A stretch of 33,324 nt of DNA from Acidobacterium sp. (GTDB taxonomy: Bacteria; Acidobacteriota; Terriglobia; Terriglobales; Acidobacteriaceae), in contig DAHUYD010000041.1 in NCBI GenBank assembly GCA_027315385.1, forward strand, positions 1 to 33,324, given 5' to 3'. Position numbers and translations under genes: made by a program. The notes under the pieces are model-generated. The model did not search any database, was not told the DNA's origin, and was given only the letters and a program-made list of their open reading frames with translations. Shown piece after piece: positions 8,421 to 16,654 of this stretch. Each line of letters begins with the position of its first letter. Position 1 is the first letter of the stretch.

Positions 8421-9083
8421 CTAATGCGCTCCGGGCGCGGAAGGGGTGAGCGCGTCGAGCGCCAGATTGAGTTCCAGGACGTTGACCCGGGGTTCGCCGA
8501 GAAAGCCGAGCTGCCGCCCCTGGATATGGGCCCTCACGAGGGTGCGCACCGTGGCCTCCGGCAGATGGCGGGCTGCGGCGACCATCGGCACCTGGTAATA
8601 GGCGCCTTCCGGAGAAATGTCCGGGTCCACGCCCGAAGCGGAAGCCGTCACCAGCCCAACAGGCACCGGACCCTTCGCGCCGGGGTCGATCTTGTGCCAG
8701 TCCGTGACGGAAGCATCGACGCGGCTGACCAGCGCCTGGCTGGTGGGGCCCAGGTTGGAGCCGCCCGAGTTGGCGGCATCGTATCCGTTGCCGGCAGCGG
8801 AGGGGCGCGAGTTGAAATAGCGCGGGCCGGTGAAGCTCTGGCCGATGATGGCGGAGCCGATCACCTGCCCATGGCGCACGATCAGTTGGCCGTCGGCCTT
8901 ATACGGCATGGCGAGATGCGCGATGCCGGTAATCGCCAGCGGATAGACGATGCCCAGCAGCACGGTCGTGATGAGCGTATAGCGAACGGCGACGAGCAGC
9001 ACGCTGCTCATCGGGCCATCGCCCGGAACGCGGGTCCCGCTGCGAACTTCTTCGTCTCGATGGTGGGTCATCATGGTCGTCAC
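8421..9083 (-). CDS. kdpC: Potassium-transporting ATPase subunit C
   Basis: The membrane-anchored chaperone-like subunit of the KdpFABC K+ pump. The single transmembrane helix (LITTVLLGIVYPLAITGIA) is followed by the KdpC signatures GQSFTGPRYFNSRPSA, SGGSNLGP, ASGVDPDISPEGA and the C-terminal RVNVLELNLALDAL. The length is 220 residues against about 190 usually; the excess is a 24-residue hydrophilic N-terminal extension. The extension looks genuine: the GTG at 9083 has AAGGAG 7 nt upstream, whereas the following ATGs are too far from any Shine-Dalgarno. It follows kdpB by 18 nt and is last in the operon. Confidence 0.96.
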   Translation of the reverse strand: MTTMMTHHRDEEVRSGTRVPGDGPMSSVLLVAVRYTLITTVLLGIVYPLAITGIAHLAMPYKADGQLIVRHGQVIGSAIIGQSFTGPRYFNSRPSAAGNGYDAANSGGSNLGPTSQALVSRVDASVTDWHKIDPGAKGPVPVGLVTASASGVDPDISPEGAYYQVPMVAAARHLPEATVRTLVRAHIQGRQLGFLGEPRVNVLELNLALDALTPSAPGAH

Positions 9084-9101: not shown

Positions 9102-11132
<2,031 letters not shown>

Positions 11133-11150: not shown

Positions 11151-12863
11151 TTAGGAAAAGAGGACGCCATGCTGCAGCAGCAGGTGTTCCAGTATGGGAC
11201 CCAGGCTGAGCGCGGGGAAGAAGGTGAGCGCGCCGACGATCAGGATCACGCCGGTGAGCAGCACGGTAAACAGGGCCGTGTTCACCGGGAATGTTCCCGG
11301 CGAAGGTGGAATGCTCTTCTTGCGGGCCAGATTGCCGGCCAGCGCGAGCATGGGAATCATCATCAGGAAACGGCCGCCGAGCATGTTGAAGCCGAGCGAG
11401 GCGTTGTACCAATGCGTGTTCGCATTGAGTCCGGCAAAGGCCGAGCCGTTATTGGCCGCCGTGGAGGCAAAGGCGTACAGGATCTCGCTCAGGCCGTGCG
11501 GCCCGTGGTTTGCCAGGCTGCCGAGCCCCATCGGATAGAGCACCGAGATCGCCGTCAACACCAAAATCGCCAGGGGGAAGATGAGCAGGTAGAGCATCGT
11601 CATCTTCACGTCGTAGGACTCGATCTTCTTCCCCAGATACTCCGGGGTTCGCCCGACCATGAGGCCGGCGATGAAGACAGAGAGCACGACGTAGATAAGG
11701 ATGCCGTACAGGCCTGAACCAACGCCGCCGAAGACGATACAGCCCAGCATGATATTCATGAGCGGCACCATCCCTCCCAGCGGCATGAAGGAATCGTGCA
11801 TGGAGTTGACCGCTCCGCAGCTCGTGTCGGTGGTGACCGTCGCGAACAGCGCGGAGTTCATAACGCCGAAGCGGGTCTCCTTGCCCTCCATGTTGCCGCC
11901 GGATTGATGCCAGCTCGCGTGCTGGTTCACGCCGTGGAGTACCGGGCTGGGCTGCGCCTCGGCCCACCAGGCGACCGTGAATCCCGCCGCGAACAGGATG
12001 GACATACAGGCAAAGACCGCCCAGCCGTGCCCTGGCGAGCCGGTCATGCGGCCCAGAGTGACCGTCAGAGCCGCTCCGATCAGGACAATGAGGAACATCT
12101 CGGTGAAGTTGGTCAGCGGCGTCGGGTTTTCAAAGGGATGGGCGCTGTTGGCGTTGAAGAAGCCGCCGCCGTTCGTGCCCAGTTCCTTAATGATCTCCTG
12201 TGAGGCGACAGGCCCCTGCGCAATGGTTTGCGTCTGTCCCTGCACCGTGTGGGCGACAGTGTACGGATGCAGGTTCTGAATGCATCCCTGGCTGACGAGA
12301 AACAGAGCACCGGCGATGCAGATGGGCAGCAGCACGTAGAGGCATGCACGCGTCGAGTCCACCCAGAAATTGCCGATGGTCTTCGACTCTCGGCGCGCGA
12401 TCCCGCGGATCAGAGCGATCGCGCAGGCGATGCCCACGGCCGCGCTGAAAAAGTTGTGATACGCGAGGCCGGCCATTTGCGTGAAATAGCTCATGGTGGT
12501 CTCGGGCGTATAGGACTGCCAGTTCGTATTGGTCGTGAAAGAGGCAGCGGTATTCCAGGCGAGAAACTGTTCCACGCCGGGCAGGTGCTGAGGATTCCAT
12601 GGCAAAAAGTGCTGTCCCCGCTCGATGACGTACGTCAGCAGGAGCGACGCGAAGCTGAACAGCAGCATGGCGGCGGCGTATCCGCGCCACGACATCTCCT
12701 GGTCTTCGTGAATGCCGGAAATGCGATAGATCGGCTTCTCCAGCCAGGCGAAGAATCGATACTTCCCGCTGAAGACGCCGGCCATGTAGATGCCCAGGGG
12801 CCGCATGCAGAGGAGCAGCAACGCGAAGAAAAACAGGAACTGGAGCCAGCCGTTGGCGGTCAT
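11151..12863 (-). CDS. kdpA: Potassium-transporting ATPase, K+-binding subunit A
   Basis: The channel-like subunit that binds and translocates K+. 570 residues with about ten hydrophobic segments. All four degenerate selectivity-filter loops of the SKT superfamily are visible: TTNTNWQSY, GTNGGGFFNANSAHPF, GGVGSGLYG and AANNGSAFAGL. Its ATG overlaps the kdpF stop codon by one base (TGATG), indicating translational coupling. The next gene, kdpB, starts 18 nt after its stop. Confidence 0.98.
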   Translation of the reverse strand: MTANGWLQFLFFFALLLLCMRPLGIYMAGVFSGKYRFFAWLEKPIYRISGIHEDQEMSWRGYAAAMLLFSFASLLLTYVIERGQHFLPWNPQHLPGVEQFLAWNTAASFTTNTNWQSYTPETTMSYFTQMAGLAYHNFFSAAVGIACAIALIRGIARRESKTIGNFWVDSTRACLYVLLPICIAGALFLVSQGCIQNLHPYTVAHTVQGQTQTIAQGPVASQEIIKELGTNGGGFFNANSAHPFENPTPLTNFTEMFLIVLIGAALTVTLGRMTGSPGHGWAVFACMSILFAAGFTVAWWAEAQPSPVLHGVNQHASWHQSGGNMEGKETRFGVMNSALFATVTTDTSCGAVNSMHDSFMPLGGMVPLMNIMLGCIVFGGVGSGLYGILIYVVLSVFIAGLMVGRTPEYLGKKIESYDVKMTMLYLLIFPLAILVLTAISVLYPMGLGSLANHGPHGLSEILYAFASTAANNGSAFAGLNANTHWYNASLGFNMLGGRFLMMIPMLALAGNLARKKSIPPSPGTFPVNTALFTVLLTGVILIVGALTFFPALSLGPILEHLLLQHGVLFS

Positions 12864-12952
12864 CAGAATTTCTCCGGGTAGAGGAGGGCCACAATCAGGT
12901 ACGCGAGCAGGCCCGTGGTGATGGCGAGGACAGCGAGAGTGACGATGTGCAT
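12863..12952 (-). CDS. kdpF: KdpF, small lipid-like stabilising subunit of the Kdp pump
   Basis: A 29-codon ORF reading MHIVTLAVLAITTGLLAYLI then VALLYPEKF. It is one transmembrane helix ending in the Y-L-x-x-A-L-x-x-P/A-E-x-F pattern typical of KdpF. Position immediately before kdpA with a TGATG overlap supports the call. GAGG lies about 8 nt before its ATG, inside the end of the preceding small ORF. In E. coli the protein stabilises the KdpABC complex in the membrane. Confidence 0.93.
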   Translation of the reverse strand: MHIVTLAVLAITTGLLAYLIVALLYPEKF

Positions 12953-12957
12953 GGGGT

Positions 12958-13044
12958 CTACCTCAGGTTCTCGCAGGCGGCCACGTAGAGCAGCGCGACC
13001 GCGAAGAAGAGGATGGTGAAGGCCAGCATCAGGAGGTCTGTCAT
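12958..13044 (-). CDS. 28-residue membrane protein preceding kdpF
   Basis: Reads MTDLLMLAFTILFFAVALLY then VAACENLR: one hydrophobic helix followed by a short Cys-containing polar tail. It stops 5 nt before kdpF and is leftward with the operon, and the kdpF Shine-Dalgarno lies within its last codons, so coupling is likely. Its start is 45 nt downstream of the putative KdpE repeats. A dedicated small ORF ahead of kdpF is, from memory, seen in other genomes, but I cannot verify this or name a function. It may be a second lipid-like accessory peptide or a leader. Confidence 0.7.
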   Translation of the reverse strand: MTDLLMLAFTILFFAVALLYVAACENLR

Positions 13045-13089
13045 AGGCGTCTCAACCTTGTTCCTATTTCAAGCGCCGTCCGCCAGGGG

Positions 13090-13122
13090 CGGCGTAACGG
13101 TTGCATAAGGATTTTGTAAGGG
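13090..13122. promoter_or_regulatory. Putative KdpE-binding array upstream of the kdp operon
   Basis: Three head-to-tail 11-bp units on the plus strand: CGGCGTAACGG, TTGCATAAGGA and TTTTGTAAGGG, with core TAANG at the same place in each. The 11-bp period is the hallmark of OmpR/PhoB-class regulators such as KdpE. The array ends 45 bp upstream of the first small ORF of the operon. Units with a similar core recur upstream of the porin gene. Confidence 0.6.
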
Positions 13123-13150
13123 CGCGAGGGCTTGCGAAAGCACCGGAGCA

Positions 13151-14308
13151 TCAGCTCTTCGGGCCAAAGAAAGCGATGAGGGCAACGGTGAAGGTGGACT
13201 GCGCATTCACGCGTCCTGTATTGCCCTTGTGGAAGAAGGCGACGCTGGACCAGTCGCGGCGGTATTCGGCGCGGGTGAGCAGCCCATGCTGCCATTTGTA
13301 TTCGTACGTTCCCGTGAACTCCTGAATATCCTGGGGAGTTCCGGTGGTGAAGCCCGAATTATCGGCGTAGTACTCATAGCGGGCGCTGAGGGCCGTTTTG
13401 CCGGTGACCTGTTCGTGGGCGGCGAAGGCAATGCCGGACCAGTGCGCGGAGGAAGCCGGCGTGGCTGTGGTTCCCGAATCGGAGGCCGGAGTCTGGTTCT
13501 GCCCGTAGTCGTAATTGATATACGCGTTGAATTTCGCATCAGGCGTCAGCAGCAGCGTCGGGTCGATCAGATTCCGATAGCCCTTCTGCGTGTCGACGTT
13601 TTGTGGCCCCGTGTAGTAGTTCAGGTCCCAGGTGTACTTCGTCCTGGTGAGCGCGCTGGTGAGGCCCACAGTGACACCGCCATTGTTGGCGACCACATCG
13701 TTCCAGCCGTTGACGAGCTGGAGGCCGGCGGTCCAGGTTTTGGTGAAGGGCGTGGAAGTGCGCAGGCCGAAGTGGTAGTACGGCACAGCGAAGGAAAACA
13801 GCAGCGAGCGCGAGTAGTTCCAGTCGTTCATCGCGGGGATGACTTCAGCTCCGGCGGAGCTGACAAACTGTCCAAAATCGAACTCGGAGCCGTGCGTCTT
13901 TGCTGGTGTGTAGCTGAGGTACGCCTGCTCGATGTAGTTGTCGGTGTCCTTCTCGCTGGCGGCGTGAATCAGGGTGTTGGTGCGGCCGGCGATCAGGTCG
14001 GCGTGGAACCCGACGGGATCGGGATTGTGGTTGAGGGTCAGGTCCAGCGCGCTCAGGTTGAACTGGTCGGTCTTGTCATTGAAGTTGTAGAGGTCGTTCG
14101 TCTGGCCGTTCGCGGCATTGCCGGGACGATTGGCGTTGTAGCTATAGTAGCCATCGAGAAAGCCGCTGAAATCGACAGGACCCAGGCTCCAAACCGGGGC
14201 GGATGGCGGTGGCGCGGGTGCGGGCGCGCTCTGCGTCCGGGCTGTCGCGGCCGCCGCGAAACAGAACAGCGCGGCGCCCGCAATTTTCAAAGGGATCCTG
14301 GGCCTCAT
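13151..14308 (-). CDS. Outer-membrane beta-barrel protein (porin-like) in the Kdp locus
   Basis: 385 residues with a signal peptide (basic start, hydrophobic core, about residues 1-26) and then a Pro/Ala-rich linker (PAPAPPPSAP). The rest alternates aromatic and polar residues in the manner of barrel strands: FSGFLDGYYSYN, LDLTLNHNPDPVGFHADLIA, YIEQAYLSYTP, YYHFGLR and ALSARYEYYADNSGF. It looks like the 'putative beta-barrel porin-2 / OmpL-like' group. The last strand is near the C-terminus (FTVALIAFFGPKS). It lies between kdpE and the kdp operon, same strand, suggesting it supplies K+ or osmolytes through the outer membrane when Kdp is induced. That link is inferred from position and the shared upstream repeats. 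Confidence 0.82.
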   Translation of the reverse strand: MRPRIPLKIAGAALFCFAAAATARTQSAPAPAPPPSAPVWSLGPVDFSGFLDGYYSYNANRPGNAANGQTNDLYNFNDKTDQFNLSALDLTLNHNPDPVGFHADLIAGRTNTLIHAASEKDTDNYIEQAYLSYTPAKTHGSEFDFGQFVSSAGAEVIPAMNDWNYSRSLLFSFAVPYYHFGLRTSTPFTKTWTAGLQLVNGWNDVVANNGGVTVGLTSALTRTKYTWDLNYYTGPQNVDTQKGYRNLIDPTLLLTPDAKFNAYINYDYGQNQTPASDSGTTATPASSAHWSGIAFAAHEQVTGKTALSARYEYYADNSGFTTGTPQDIQEFTGTYEYKWQHGLLTRAEYRRDWSSVAFFHKGNTGRVNAQSTFTVALIAFFGPKS

Positions 14309-14368
14309 AGCTCTCCGTTCAGTGCCCTCGGGCCGATGACTCGGCCTTTCTGTCAGGCAATTACGAAG

Positions 14369-14423
14369 ATTACGAAGCGAACTGCAATGAAACGCGAAGG
14401 AAACCGTCAGGAATTCGTAAGAA
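14369..14423. promoter_or_regulatory. Putative KdpE-binding array upstream of the porin gene
   Basis: Five successive 11-bp units on the plus strand: ATTACGAAGCG, AACTGCAATGA, AACGCGAAGGA, AACCGTCAGGA and ATTCGTAAGAA. They are aligned on an AAGGA-like end that resembles the TAAGG core of the kdp array. The array ends 60 bp from the porin start and begins right after the kdpE stop. Individual units are degenerate; the periodicity is the main evidence. Confidence 0.5.
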
Positions 14424-14428
14424 GTCGG

Positions 14429-15130
14429 CTACTCTGCCGATGGTTCCGGAGCACCTTCAGGCAAAAAGCGATAGCCGATCCAGGGTTCAGTCTGAATGTA
14501 TTCGCGAGGGCTGTCGCTCTGAAGCTTTTTCCGCAACTGCCCCACAAACACGCGGAGGTACTCCGGCTGCTGGGCCGACTGCGCGCCCCACACGGCGGTC
14601 AGCAGGGCCCGATGCGTCAGCACCTTGCCGGCATTTCGCGCGAAGAACAGGAGCAGGTCGAATTCCCTCGGGGTGAGGTGCACGGGCCGGCCGCACAGGG
14701 TAACCGAGTGCCCCTCGTGATCGATGACGAAGTCGCCGCTCTCGATCCGCTGCTGAGTGCTGCGCTCCGGGGCGCGGCGCAGCTGAGCGCGCACGCGCGC
14801 GAGGAGTTCCTGGATGCCGAAAGGTTTTGTAACGTAGTCGTCGGCCCCGGCGTCCAGCGCCTCGACTTTTGTGCGCTCCTGTTCGCGTACGGAGAGGACC
14901 AGAATGGGAGTGCGGCTGCGGCGCCGGACAGCGCGGCACAAGTCCACGCCTGTCATGCCCGGCATCATCAGATCGGTGACCAGCAGGTCAGGCTGCCATT
15001 CCTCAAAAAGGCGCAGCCCCTCCTCAGGATCATTGGCGGTGCGCACGTCATAGCGCTGTGCCGCGAGCGACGCGCGAAGCACGCGCGTGATCTGAATCTC
15101 GTCGTCGATTACCAGAATGCGTTCGGCCAT
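14429..15130 (-). CDS. kdpE: KdpE-like OmpR-family response regulator
   Basis: A 233-residue two-component regulator. The receiver domain has acidic Asp9-Asp10, phospho-acceptor Asp53 in LLVTDLMMPG, Ser80 and Lys102 in DYVTKPFG. The C-terminal winged helix ends with HRALLTAVWG, LRVFVGQLRKKL and GYRFLPEG; Y-L-R-V-F-V-G-Q-L-R-K-K is a recognised KdpE signature. The frame is open upstream of the ATG at 15130, but that extension runs into the divergent kinase gene and is basic and unlike a receiver, so MAERILVIDD is taken as the start. No good Shine-Dalgarno is visible. It would activate kdpFABC at low K+ and probably the porin too. Confidence 0.93.
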   Translation of the reverse strand: MAERILVIDDEIQITRVLRASLAAQRYDVRTANDPEEGLRLFEEWQPDLLVTDLMMPGMTGVDLCRAVRRRSRTPILVLSVREQERTKVEALDAGADDYVTKPFGIQELLARVRAQLRRAPERSTQQRIESGDFVIDHEGHSVTLCGRPVHLTPREFDLLLFFARNAGKVLTHRALLTAVWGAQSAQQPEYLRVFVGQLRKKLQSDSPREYIQTEPWIGYRFLPEGAPEPSAE

Positions 15131-15157: not shown

Positions 15158-16654
15158 GTGATGCAGCCTGTTACGCAGAAGCATACGCCCAATCCGGTGC
15201 GAATGCTGGCTCGCTACATATCCCTGACTGGCGCAGCTCTTCTGCTGGTGCTGCTGTTTCGCACCGTGGCGCGGGTGAACGAAACGACGGTGGCCCTCAG
15301 CTTCCTGATGCTGGTCATGGTCACGGCGTCGCGATGGAGGCTGCAATACTCCGTTTATCTGTCGGTGCTCTGCACGCTGCTCTACAACTTCTTTTTTCTG
15401 CCTCCGGTCGGCCGTTTAACCATCGAAGATCCGCGCAACTGGATCGCGCTCACCGCGTTTCTGGCATGCAGCGTTCTGGTGAGTCATTTGTCGAACCAGG
15501 AGCATCTTCACGCGGAAGCAGCAGAAGATCGTCGCCGCGAAGTGGAGCGGCTGTATGAATTCAGCCAGCAACTGCTGCTGCAGGACGATCCTCGAAGGCT
15601 GGCGCGCGCCACCCCGTCGGCGGCGGCGGAAGTATTCGGGTTCAGCGCCGTGGCGCTCTACGTGCGCGAAGACGATGCGGTGTATTCCTCCGATCCGAAC
15701 AGGGAGATTATGTCCGCTGCGGAATTGAAGCTGACGGGCGGGAAGGGGGAGGCGGCTCCGGCGGTGCGCGACGGATGCCGGATCATCCCGCTCTCATTGG
15801 GCATGCGATCGCCCGGTGTGCTGGCGGTGAGCGATGGCGGCTATTCTCCCGAGATTTACGAGGCGATTGGCAGCCTGGTGGCTATTGCGCTGGAACGCGC
15901 CGGGGCGCTGGAGCGCAGCAGCCGGCTGGAGGCGTCGCGCGAGGGCGAGCGCCTGCGCAGCGCTCTTCTCGATTCTGTTACTCACGATCTGCGTACCCCG
16001 CTTACGGCCATTCGCGCCGCGGTGACGACGCTGGCGAGCACTCCGGATTTGCCCGAGCGGGAGCAGGCGGATCTCCTCGCTGTGGTGGATGAAGAGAGCA
16101 CCCGCCTGGATCGTCTGATCGGTCAAGCCGTGGAGATGGCGGTGCTGGACGCTGAAGCCGTCAAACTTCACAGCCAGCCGCAGGATGTAGAGGAGCTGAT
16201 GGAAACCTCGGTCGAAGAGTTGCGGCCGCTGCTTCGGGGACGGCGCGTGGAGCTGCAGGCGCCGGACGATCTGCCGCGCGTGCCCATGGACCGCGAGTTA
16301 GTCCATCGGGCCCTGCGGCATGTACTCGAGAATGCCGTTCGCTACTCGCCTCCGGAATCGCGCGTAGTGCTGACCGCGGCGCGCGAAAGCGATCGCCTGG
16401 TGCTCTCGGTCGCGGATGAGGGGCCGGGCATCGACCCGGCGGAGCAGTTGTTCGTTTTCGACAAGTTTTACCGCGGCCGTCAGCACCGCACGTCGATCGG
16501 GGGCAGCGGGATGGGACTCGCCATCGCGAAAGCCATCCTGGAGGCGCATGGGGGCGGCATTGCGCTGTCCAGCAATCCGGGGCACGGCTCGCGATTTACG
16601 CTTTGGCTGCCGATGGCGGGGTCACGAACCGAGGAGAGAACAAATACGGATTGA
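15158..16654 (+). CDS. KdpD-like sensor histidine kinase lacking the N-terminal KdpD domain
   Basis: 498 residues. Four transmembrane helices between about residues 20 and 110 form the DUF4118 membrane module (including YSVYLSVLCTLLYNFFFLPP). A GAF-like region follows (about 140-250), then HisKA with SVTHDLRTPLTAIRAA (His276). The HATPase has ENAVRYS (about 391-397), DEGPGI (about 420-425) and GGSGMGLAI (about 448-456). Full-length KdpD (about 890 residues) carries an N-terminal KdpD/Usp region; none is present here, so this is the short 'DUF4118' form. It is divergent from kdpE with only about 27 bp between starts, and is the obvious partner of KdpE. The GTG at 15158 is directly followed by an ATG at 15161; either may be used. 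Confidence 0.9.
   Translation: MMQPVTQKHTPNPVRMLARYISLTGAALLLVLLFRTVARVNETTVALSFLMLVMVTASRWRLQYSVYLSVLCTLLYNFFFLPPVGRLTIEDPRNWIALTAFLACSVLVSHLSNQEHLHAEAAEDRRREVERLYEFSQQLLLQDDPRRLARATPSAAAEVFGFSAVALYVREDDAVYSSDPNREIMSAAELKLTGGKGEAAPAVRDGCRIIPLSLGMRSPGVLAVSDGGYSPEIYEAIGSLVAIALERAGALERSSRLEASREGERLRSALLDSVTHDLRTPLTAIRAAVTTLASTPDLPEREQADLLAVVDEESTRLDRLIGQAVEMAVLDAEAVKLHSQPQDVEELMETSVEELRPLLRGRRVELQAPDDLPRVPMDRELVHRALRHVLENAVRYSPPESRVVLTAARESDRLVLSVADEGPGIDPAEQLFVFDKFYRGRQHRTSIGGSGMGLAIAKAILEAHGGGIALSSNPGHGSRFTLWLPMAGSRTEERTNTD

Follow-up and report, generated by a model that had tools for sequence, protein, structure and literature searches.

On the minus strand of a contig from a soil-dwelling member of the Acidobacteriaceae, of which we analysed a stretch of 33,324 nucleotides (the window), a kdpE gene, a BBP2 porin gene, a 28-codon open reading frame (ORF), kdpF, kdpA, kdpB and kdpC follow one another in this order. 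Both intergenic regions next to the porin gene (kdpE/porin and porin/28-codon ORF) hold an array of 11-bp repeats. This layout raises the question of which regulator reads the two arrays, and whether the porin is switched on along with the K+ pump.

The kdp locus and its two arrays

The kdpE gene (14429-15130, minus strand) codes for a response regulator of the OmpR/PhoB family (Pfam Response_reg and Trans_reg_C; recognition helix YLRVFVGQLRKK), and 120 bp beyond it on the same strand lies the gene for a 385-aa porin (13151-14308), which matches BBP2 (PF07642) with 266.8 bits, above the Pfam cut-off. Further along the minus strand come the first ORF of the kdp operon (12958-13044; 28 aa, starting MTDLLMLAFTILFF in the sequence), kdpF (12863-12952; 29 aa, above the cut-off of TIGR02115), kdpA (11151-12863; PF03814 and TIGR00680), kdpB (9102-11132; TIGR01497) and kdpC (8421-9083; PF02669). 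The ORF before kdpF possibly encodes a second Kdp peptide; the 27-codon stretch at 12958-13044 had no NCBIfam match. Small ORFs resembling it seem to sit upstream of kdpF in many relatives.

The closest solved relative of the regulator is E. coli KdpE (4kny, E = 2.8e-48), and the alignment to that structure shows a receiver and an OmpR-type winged-helix domain with R193, R200 and the wing threonine all present. The protein scores below the cut-off of the NCBI KdpE equivalog model (189 versus 325 bits), and its name therefore rests on context and on the nearest solved relative; on the NCBI PhoB model it reaches 195.5 bits, against a cut-off of 296. Divergent from kdpE, and starting 27 bp from it, is a gene for a kdpD-like sensor kinase (15158-16654, plus strand; DUF4118, HisKA and HATPase). 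In Pfam this kinase lacks the N-terminal KdpD domain, it matches the KdpD model from position 410, and it falls below the NCBI KdpD cut-off; the signal may therefore differ. Many relatives carry about 1.2 kb more between the kinase match and kdpE, and for the open frame in this stretch of one of them (L019) Pfam shows no KdpD domain.

The initial annotation had described two 11-bp arrays sharing a TAAGG-like core. The arrays themselves were confirmed, with corrections to the strand and core and to a fifth unit before the porin, and the TAAGG-like core gave way to a unit of the form YTTAYRnnTTC, as both arrays run on the minus strand like the genes. Array 1, before the kdp operon (13077-13120), reads CTTACA-N5-CTTATG-N5-GTTACG in the orientation of the kdp genes. 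Its units lie at 13110-13120 (CTTACAAAATC; window rank 1 under the 44-bp promoter model presented below), 13099-13109 (CTTATGCAACC; CTTATGC and the following CCGTTA are invariant in the three sister species), 13088-13098 (GTTACGCCGCC; found by the model and conserved in the sister species) and 13077-13087 (CCTGGCGGACG; degenerate, with CCTGGC retained in both sister species). A −10-like hexamer, TGAAAT (13066-13071, minus strand), begins 16 bp after the start of unit 4, at a position conserved over 101 arrays. The three units noted earlier are indeed in register, with TAACG, TAAGG and TAAGG on the plus strand at 13095, 13106 and 13117 in 11-bp steps, and the window has a single TAASG-N6-TAASG-N6-TAASG, while none of 100 dinucleotide-shuffled sequences contains one. 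Since this core was chosen post hoc, the independent test is the 44-bp promoter model. Across the 3.7-Mb genome, no other site matches the three-unit pattern of array 1 as well as the array itself (1 mismatch, the others 2), which is also the only match above the control, with control counts equal or higher for all other matches.

Array 2, before the porin and also on the minus strand, comprises units at 14411-14421 (CTTACGAATTC; window rank 2 under the 44-bp model and kept in the nearest species, L002 and L003), 14400-14410 (CTGACGGTTTC; model and conservation in L002 and L003), 14389-14399 (CTTCGCGTTTC; a CTTCGC variant common to the porin promoters of L006, L011 and L028) and 14378-14388 (ATTGCAGTTCG; degenerate, identified by the model and by conservation in L002 and L003). 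Its −10-like hexamer, TAATCT (14367-14372, minus strand), keeps the same 16-bp distance from the start of unit 4, and TAATCT or TAGTCT stands at the identical offset in L002, L003, L006, L008 and L011. Five units had been proposed here (14369-14423); the 11-bp steps hold (24/44 lag-11 matches), but the fifth unit does not stand as a box, as it overlaps the −10-like hexamer and is probably promoter instead. The first half-site is CTTACG and the second, CTGACG, has one mismatch to the TTTAYR type. With two good units out of four, array 2 is weaker than array 1 and clearly weaker than most. A perfect 9-bp tandem, ATTACGAAG, at 14360-14377 overlaps the −10-like hexamer of array 2 and is absent from the sister species.

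A promoter model and its conservation

Periodicity by itself is mildly unusual and too weak to decide: as many lag-11 matches as in array 1 are found in 98 of 33,292 stretches of equal length, and as many as in array 2 in 26 of 33,270. From a sample of 80 kdp loci from named genomes and 200 further loci, we took 38 porin-less kdp loci outside the genus of the window and derived a 44-bp promoter model by expectation maximisation. The model consists of four 11-bp units, tTTACgAcTTC TTTAcgAatTc ctTACGcactt tTTAcgg, and when both strands of the window were scanned its best site was array 1 (21.3 bits), followed by array 2 (12.2 bits), with the next non-overlapping site at −0.6 bits. Over 1.5 million background positions, in which real arrays were still included, scores as high occurred about 2 (array 1) and 2.6 (array 2) times per million. 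Column-shuffled models reached neither score (0/500 each), and shuffling the intergenic dinucleotides reproduced the score of array 1 in 0/5000 and that of array 2 in 1/5000 cases.

The arrays of Acidobacteriota follow a common rule, with which both arrays of the window comply: four 11-bp units and a −10-like hexamer that follows the start of unit 4 at a distance of 16 bp. In 101 arrays, the columns +16, +19, +20 and +21 from that start, which were left out of the training of the model, carry 0.87, 0.43, 0.80 and 0.98 bits (preferred bases T, A, A/C and T), against a 95% null maximum of 0.12 bit. TGAAAT and TAATCT are therefore predicted −10 elements, and if they are, units 3 and 4 cover the −35 region. 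In PhoB-type activation, too, the boxes cover the −35 region. A sigma-70 consensus scan of the region found no promoter, because these promoters have no consensus −35 box.

Conservation in relatives, proposed earlier as a check, was found: across Acidobacteriota, the periodic units recur in front of kdpF and of porin genes at kdp loci, and in the nearest species, L002 and L003, both arrays stand at the corresponding places with most core positions invariant. Array 2 could nevertheless be a decayed or chance periodic stretch, with array 1 alone at work and the porin expressed by read-through from kdpE, which lies on the same strand 120 bp away; the two good units out of four and the ordinary periodicity would agree with this. 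We consider it very unlikely, because array 2 ranks second in the window under a held-out model, its score is matched in one of 5000 shuffles, and both sister species retain the array with its −10 hexamer, although much of the intergenic sequence around it has changed.

The statement that two arrays frame the porin applies to the clade of these three species. Most other porin-bearing relatives have one array, which precedes the porin, and lack any in the gap to kdpA, so that a single array heads a joint porin-kdp operon; an array in the porin-kdpA gap was seen in 2 of 34 adjacent cases, both of them the sister species. Where the upstream sequence was long enough (70 loci), a BBP2 gene on the same strand lies within 4.5 kb of kdpA in 30 loci. 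Of the 39 kdp-locus porins that could be tested, 34 are preceded by an array of at least 12 bits. These counts are not independent, as the loci are related by descent. The genome of the window holds two BBP2 genes in all, and the presence of one of them between kdpE and kdpF is therefore unexpected by chance.

Three relatives (L006, L008 and L011) have two porin genes between kdpE and kdpFABC, each behind an array (kdpE, array, porin A, array, porin B, kdpFABC). In L006, porin A is distant from the porin of the window (28% identity over 83 residues), and its promoter has a CTTCGC third unit and a TAATCT hexamer, spaced as in array 2. Between L006 and the window, the porin gene seems to have been swapped for another, with the promoter kept in place. 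In L028 (1389-3207) a BBP2 porin with a KdpE-type array is found beyond kdpD in tail-to-tail orientation, so that the array-porin unit occurs outside the operon too. In L032 (3269-3894) two KdpE-type arrays flank a short ORF before the porin-kdp operon; this ORF encodes a lone winged-helix DNA-binding domain (Trans_reg_C, without receiver). Doubled arrays are likewise present in L047, L069 and L071.

The regulator that reads the arrays

Several further OmpR-family regulators are encoded in the genome, one of them 42% identical to KdpE and with an 11-bp porin array of its own. The paralogue of the porin (75% identity) is encoded elsewhere in the genome, where its neighbours are glnA, a Ser/Thr kinase gene and a different OmpR-family regulator-kinase pair. 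The paralogous locus (L151, 3196-6702 on contig C153 of the same genome) and L153 share the order glnA or amtB, Ser/Thr kinase, OmpR-family regulator, kinase, BBP2 porin. The porins linked to glnA have arrays of a distinguishable 11-bp type, TTTATGAATTC CTTATGnnTTC TTTGCGTTACT, and such glnA/amtB-type loci are a probable nitrogen-linked porin regulon across the family.

Array 1 might be a KdpE site and array 2 mainly the target of a different OmpR/PhoB-family regulator, most notably the glnA-side paralogue, which appears to control the 75%-identical porin; the porin of the window would then answer nitrogen status or both signals. The weakness of array 2, the arrays of the glnA-type locus itself, and the fact that window-type porins are otherwise mostly found at the glnA/amt, Ser/Thr kinase, regulator and kinase locus all speak for such a reading. 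Under separate models of the two array classes, which leave-one-out analysis told apart in 37/38 kdp and 17/17 glnA cases, array 2 scores 13.5 bits with the kdp model and −2.1 with the glnA-type model, as opposed to 9.3 and 37.9 bits for the promoter of the paralogue. Moreover, the same combination of array and hexamer precedes unrelated BBP2 porins next to kdpE in L006, L008 and L011. We therefore regard control of array 2 by the glnA-side regulator as unlikely. The paralogue having a different array type, porins appear to follow the regulator of their own locus. The two-model comparison also rejected the possibility that array 2 was brought along with the porin from the glnA locus.

A second way to connect arrays and regulator is offered by the recognition helix. 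Both arrays consist of TTTAYR-type half-sites repeated directly, 11 bp from start to start. In five loci (L005, L012, L046, L056 and L211) the residue equivalent to R193 is His, the helix reading YLH for YLR, and TTTAGG takes the place of TTTAYR in the boxes. At least two units with G at box position 5 were found in 5/5 of these loci and in 0/53 YLR loci, counts that are not phylogenetically independent and amount to an effective sample of two origins. The array search behind these counts was blind to position 5, and L211 (one of the five) and the window (one of the 53) were entered by hand. The tree requires two independent changes from R193 to His, and L043, the sister of one His pair, has Arg together with TTTACG/TTTATG boxes. 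This covariation of box and helix ties the adjacent KdpE to the arrays. In E. coli KdpE, changing R193 to alanine abolishes binding, which left open whether the residue has a base-specific or an allosteric role (PMC3264566).

The covariation also bears on the idea that the arrays are generic OmpR/PhoB-type boxes, for instance PhoB boxes, with the neighbouring kdpE not the reader. Direct 11-bp repeats are used by OmpR/PhoB regulators as a class, and the NCBI PhoB model gives the regulator of the window a slightly higher score than the KdpE model does. However, the unit has the TTTAYR form of the E. coli KdpE half-sites (TTTATA/TTTACA), whereas PhoB was reported to read TGTCA(T/C) (PMC3264566); the boxes change with the helix of the adjacent KdpE in two lineages; and the arrays accompany kdp promoters across the phylum. 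We rate generic boxes as the least probable of all the readings considered here.

Our analysis thus upholds the two proposals of the initial annotation. That the arrays are KdpE boxes is supported by their conservation, by a spacing and core like those in E. coli, by the model comparison and by the box-helix covariation, and the 11-bp repeats before the pump operon and the porin gene are very probably docking sites of KdpE. A place of the porin in the K+-starvation regulon is well supported, by inference from array conservation, model comparison and covariation, as is putative KdpE control of both promoters.

A proposed K+-starvation switch and its known counterparts

Taken together, we think it likely from these sequence comparisons that both arrays consist of tandem KdpE half-sites and form two K+-starvation promoters, one for the porin and one for kdpFABC. 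At low K+, the DUF4118 sensor would phosphorylate KdpE, which would then occupy up to four 11-bp direct repeats of the YTTAYRnnTTC type, with units 3 and 4 over the −35 region, and RNA polymerase would start from the −10 element found 16 bp past the beginning of unit 4. The promoter at array 2 would serve the BBP2 porin and that at array 1 kdpFABC, so that K+ entry through the outer membrane and pumping across the inner membrane would be switched on together. In this scheme we infer KdpE binding, activation rather than repression, and K+ as the signal. A fold model of the porin, built on a 36-sequence alignment (pLDDT 75.8), resembles 16-stranded general porins, with Omp32 and OmpF as PDB matches. 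Such a porin would raise the permeability of the outer membrane when K+ is scarce; it may pass K+, and its fold gives no selectivity.

More tentatively, and with somewhat less than even confidence, we suggest that this is a dedicated outer-membrane arm of high-affinity K+ uptake in Acidobacteriota, that unrelated BBP2 porins have repeatedly been captured by KdpE promoters (and by those of a sister, nitrogen-linked regulator), and that KdpE residue 193 reads base 5 of the half-site. If true, the question raised by the E. coli R193A protein would be settled in favour of base reading. The natural change from R193 to His with a matching box change in any case offers a direct, two-sided way into DNA reading by KdpE, and the four-unit promoter with its fixed −10 element can serve directly as a model in the search for KdpE regulons of uncultured soil bacteria. 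We found no description of a KdpE-controlled porin, nor of a kdp-linked porin in Acidobacteria, in the open-access literature. KdpE has so far been treated as the regulator of essentially one operon, and an entire phylum seems to place an outer-membrane porin under the same switch, as the Pho regulon does for phosphate.

In the Pho regulon, the PhoB boxes are direct 11-bp repeats that overlap the −35 region. As there, a starvation regulator would induce both a porin and a high-affinity uptake system; the differences are the TTTAYR core as opposed to TGTCA, the signal, and the BBP2 type of the porin. Among PhoB targets, phoE is listed (PMC7657598), and the published regulon of E. coli KdpE consists of kdpFABC alone and a few ChIP-exo genes, none of them a porin (PMC7657598). 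In Rhizobium etli a porin-like gene, ropAe, likewise lies near a kdp cluster (kdpA-kdpE), but it is a separate gene with a reported role in copper transit, and the accessible part of that report does not mention KdpE boxes (PMC6011978). KdpE of Mycobacterium smegmatis also activates kdpFABC through a conserved upstream motif; that motif is 22 bp long, A-rich and reportedly unlike other KdpE sites, the promoter is a SigF promoter, and no porin link is reported in the accessible part of the study (PMC5401905). The closest likeness in detail is to the KdpE site of the E. coli kdpFABC promoter, TTTATA-N5-TTTACA at −72 to −50, whose half-sites were mapped experimentally (PMC3264566): the TTTAYR core, the 11-bp direct repeat, R193 and R200 in the regulator, and kdpFABC as target are the same. 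In contrast to the two half-sites of E. coli, which lie further upstream (PMC3264566), the arrays described here have four units that run into the −35 region and a predicted −10 element at a fixed distance.
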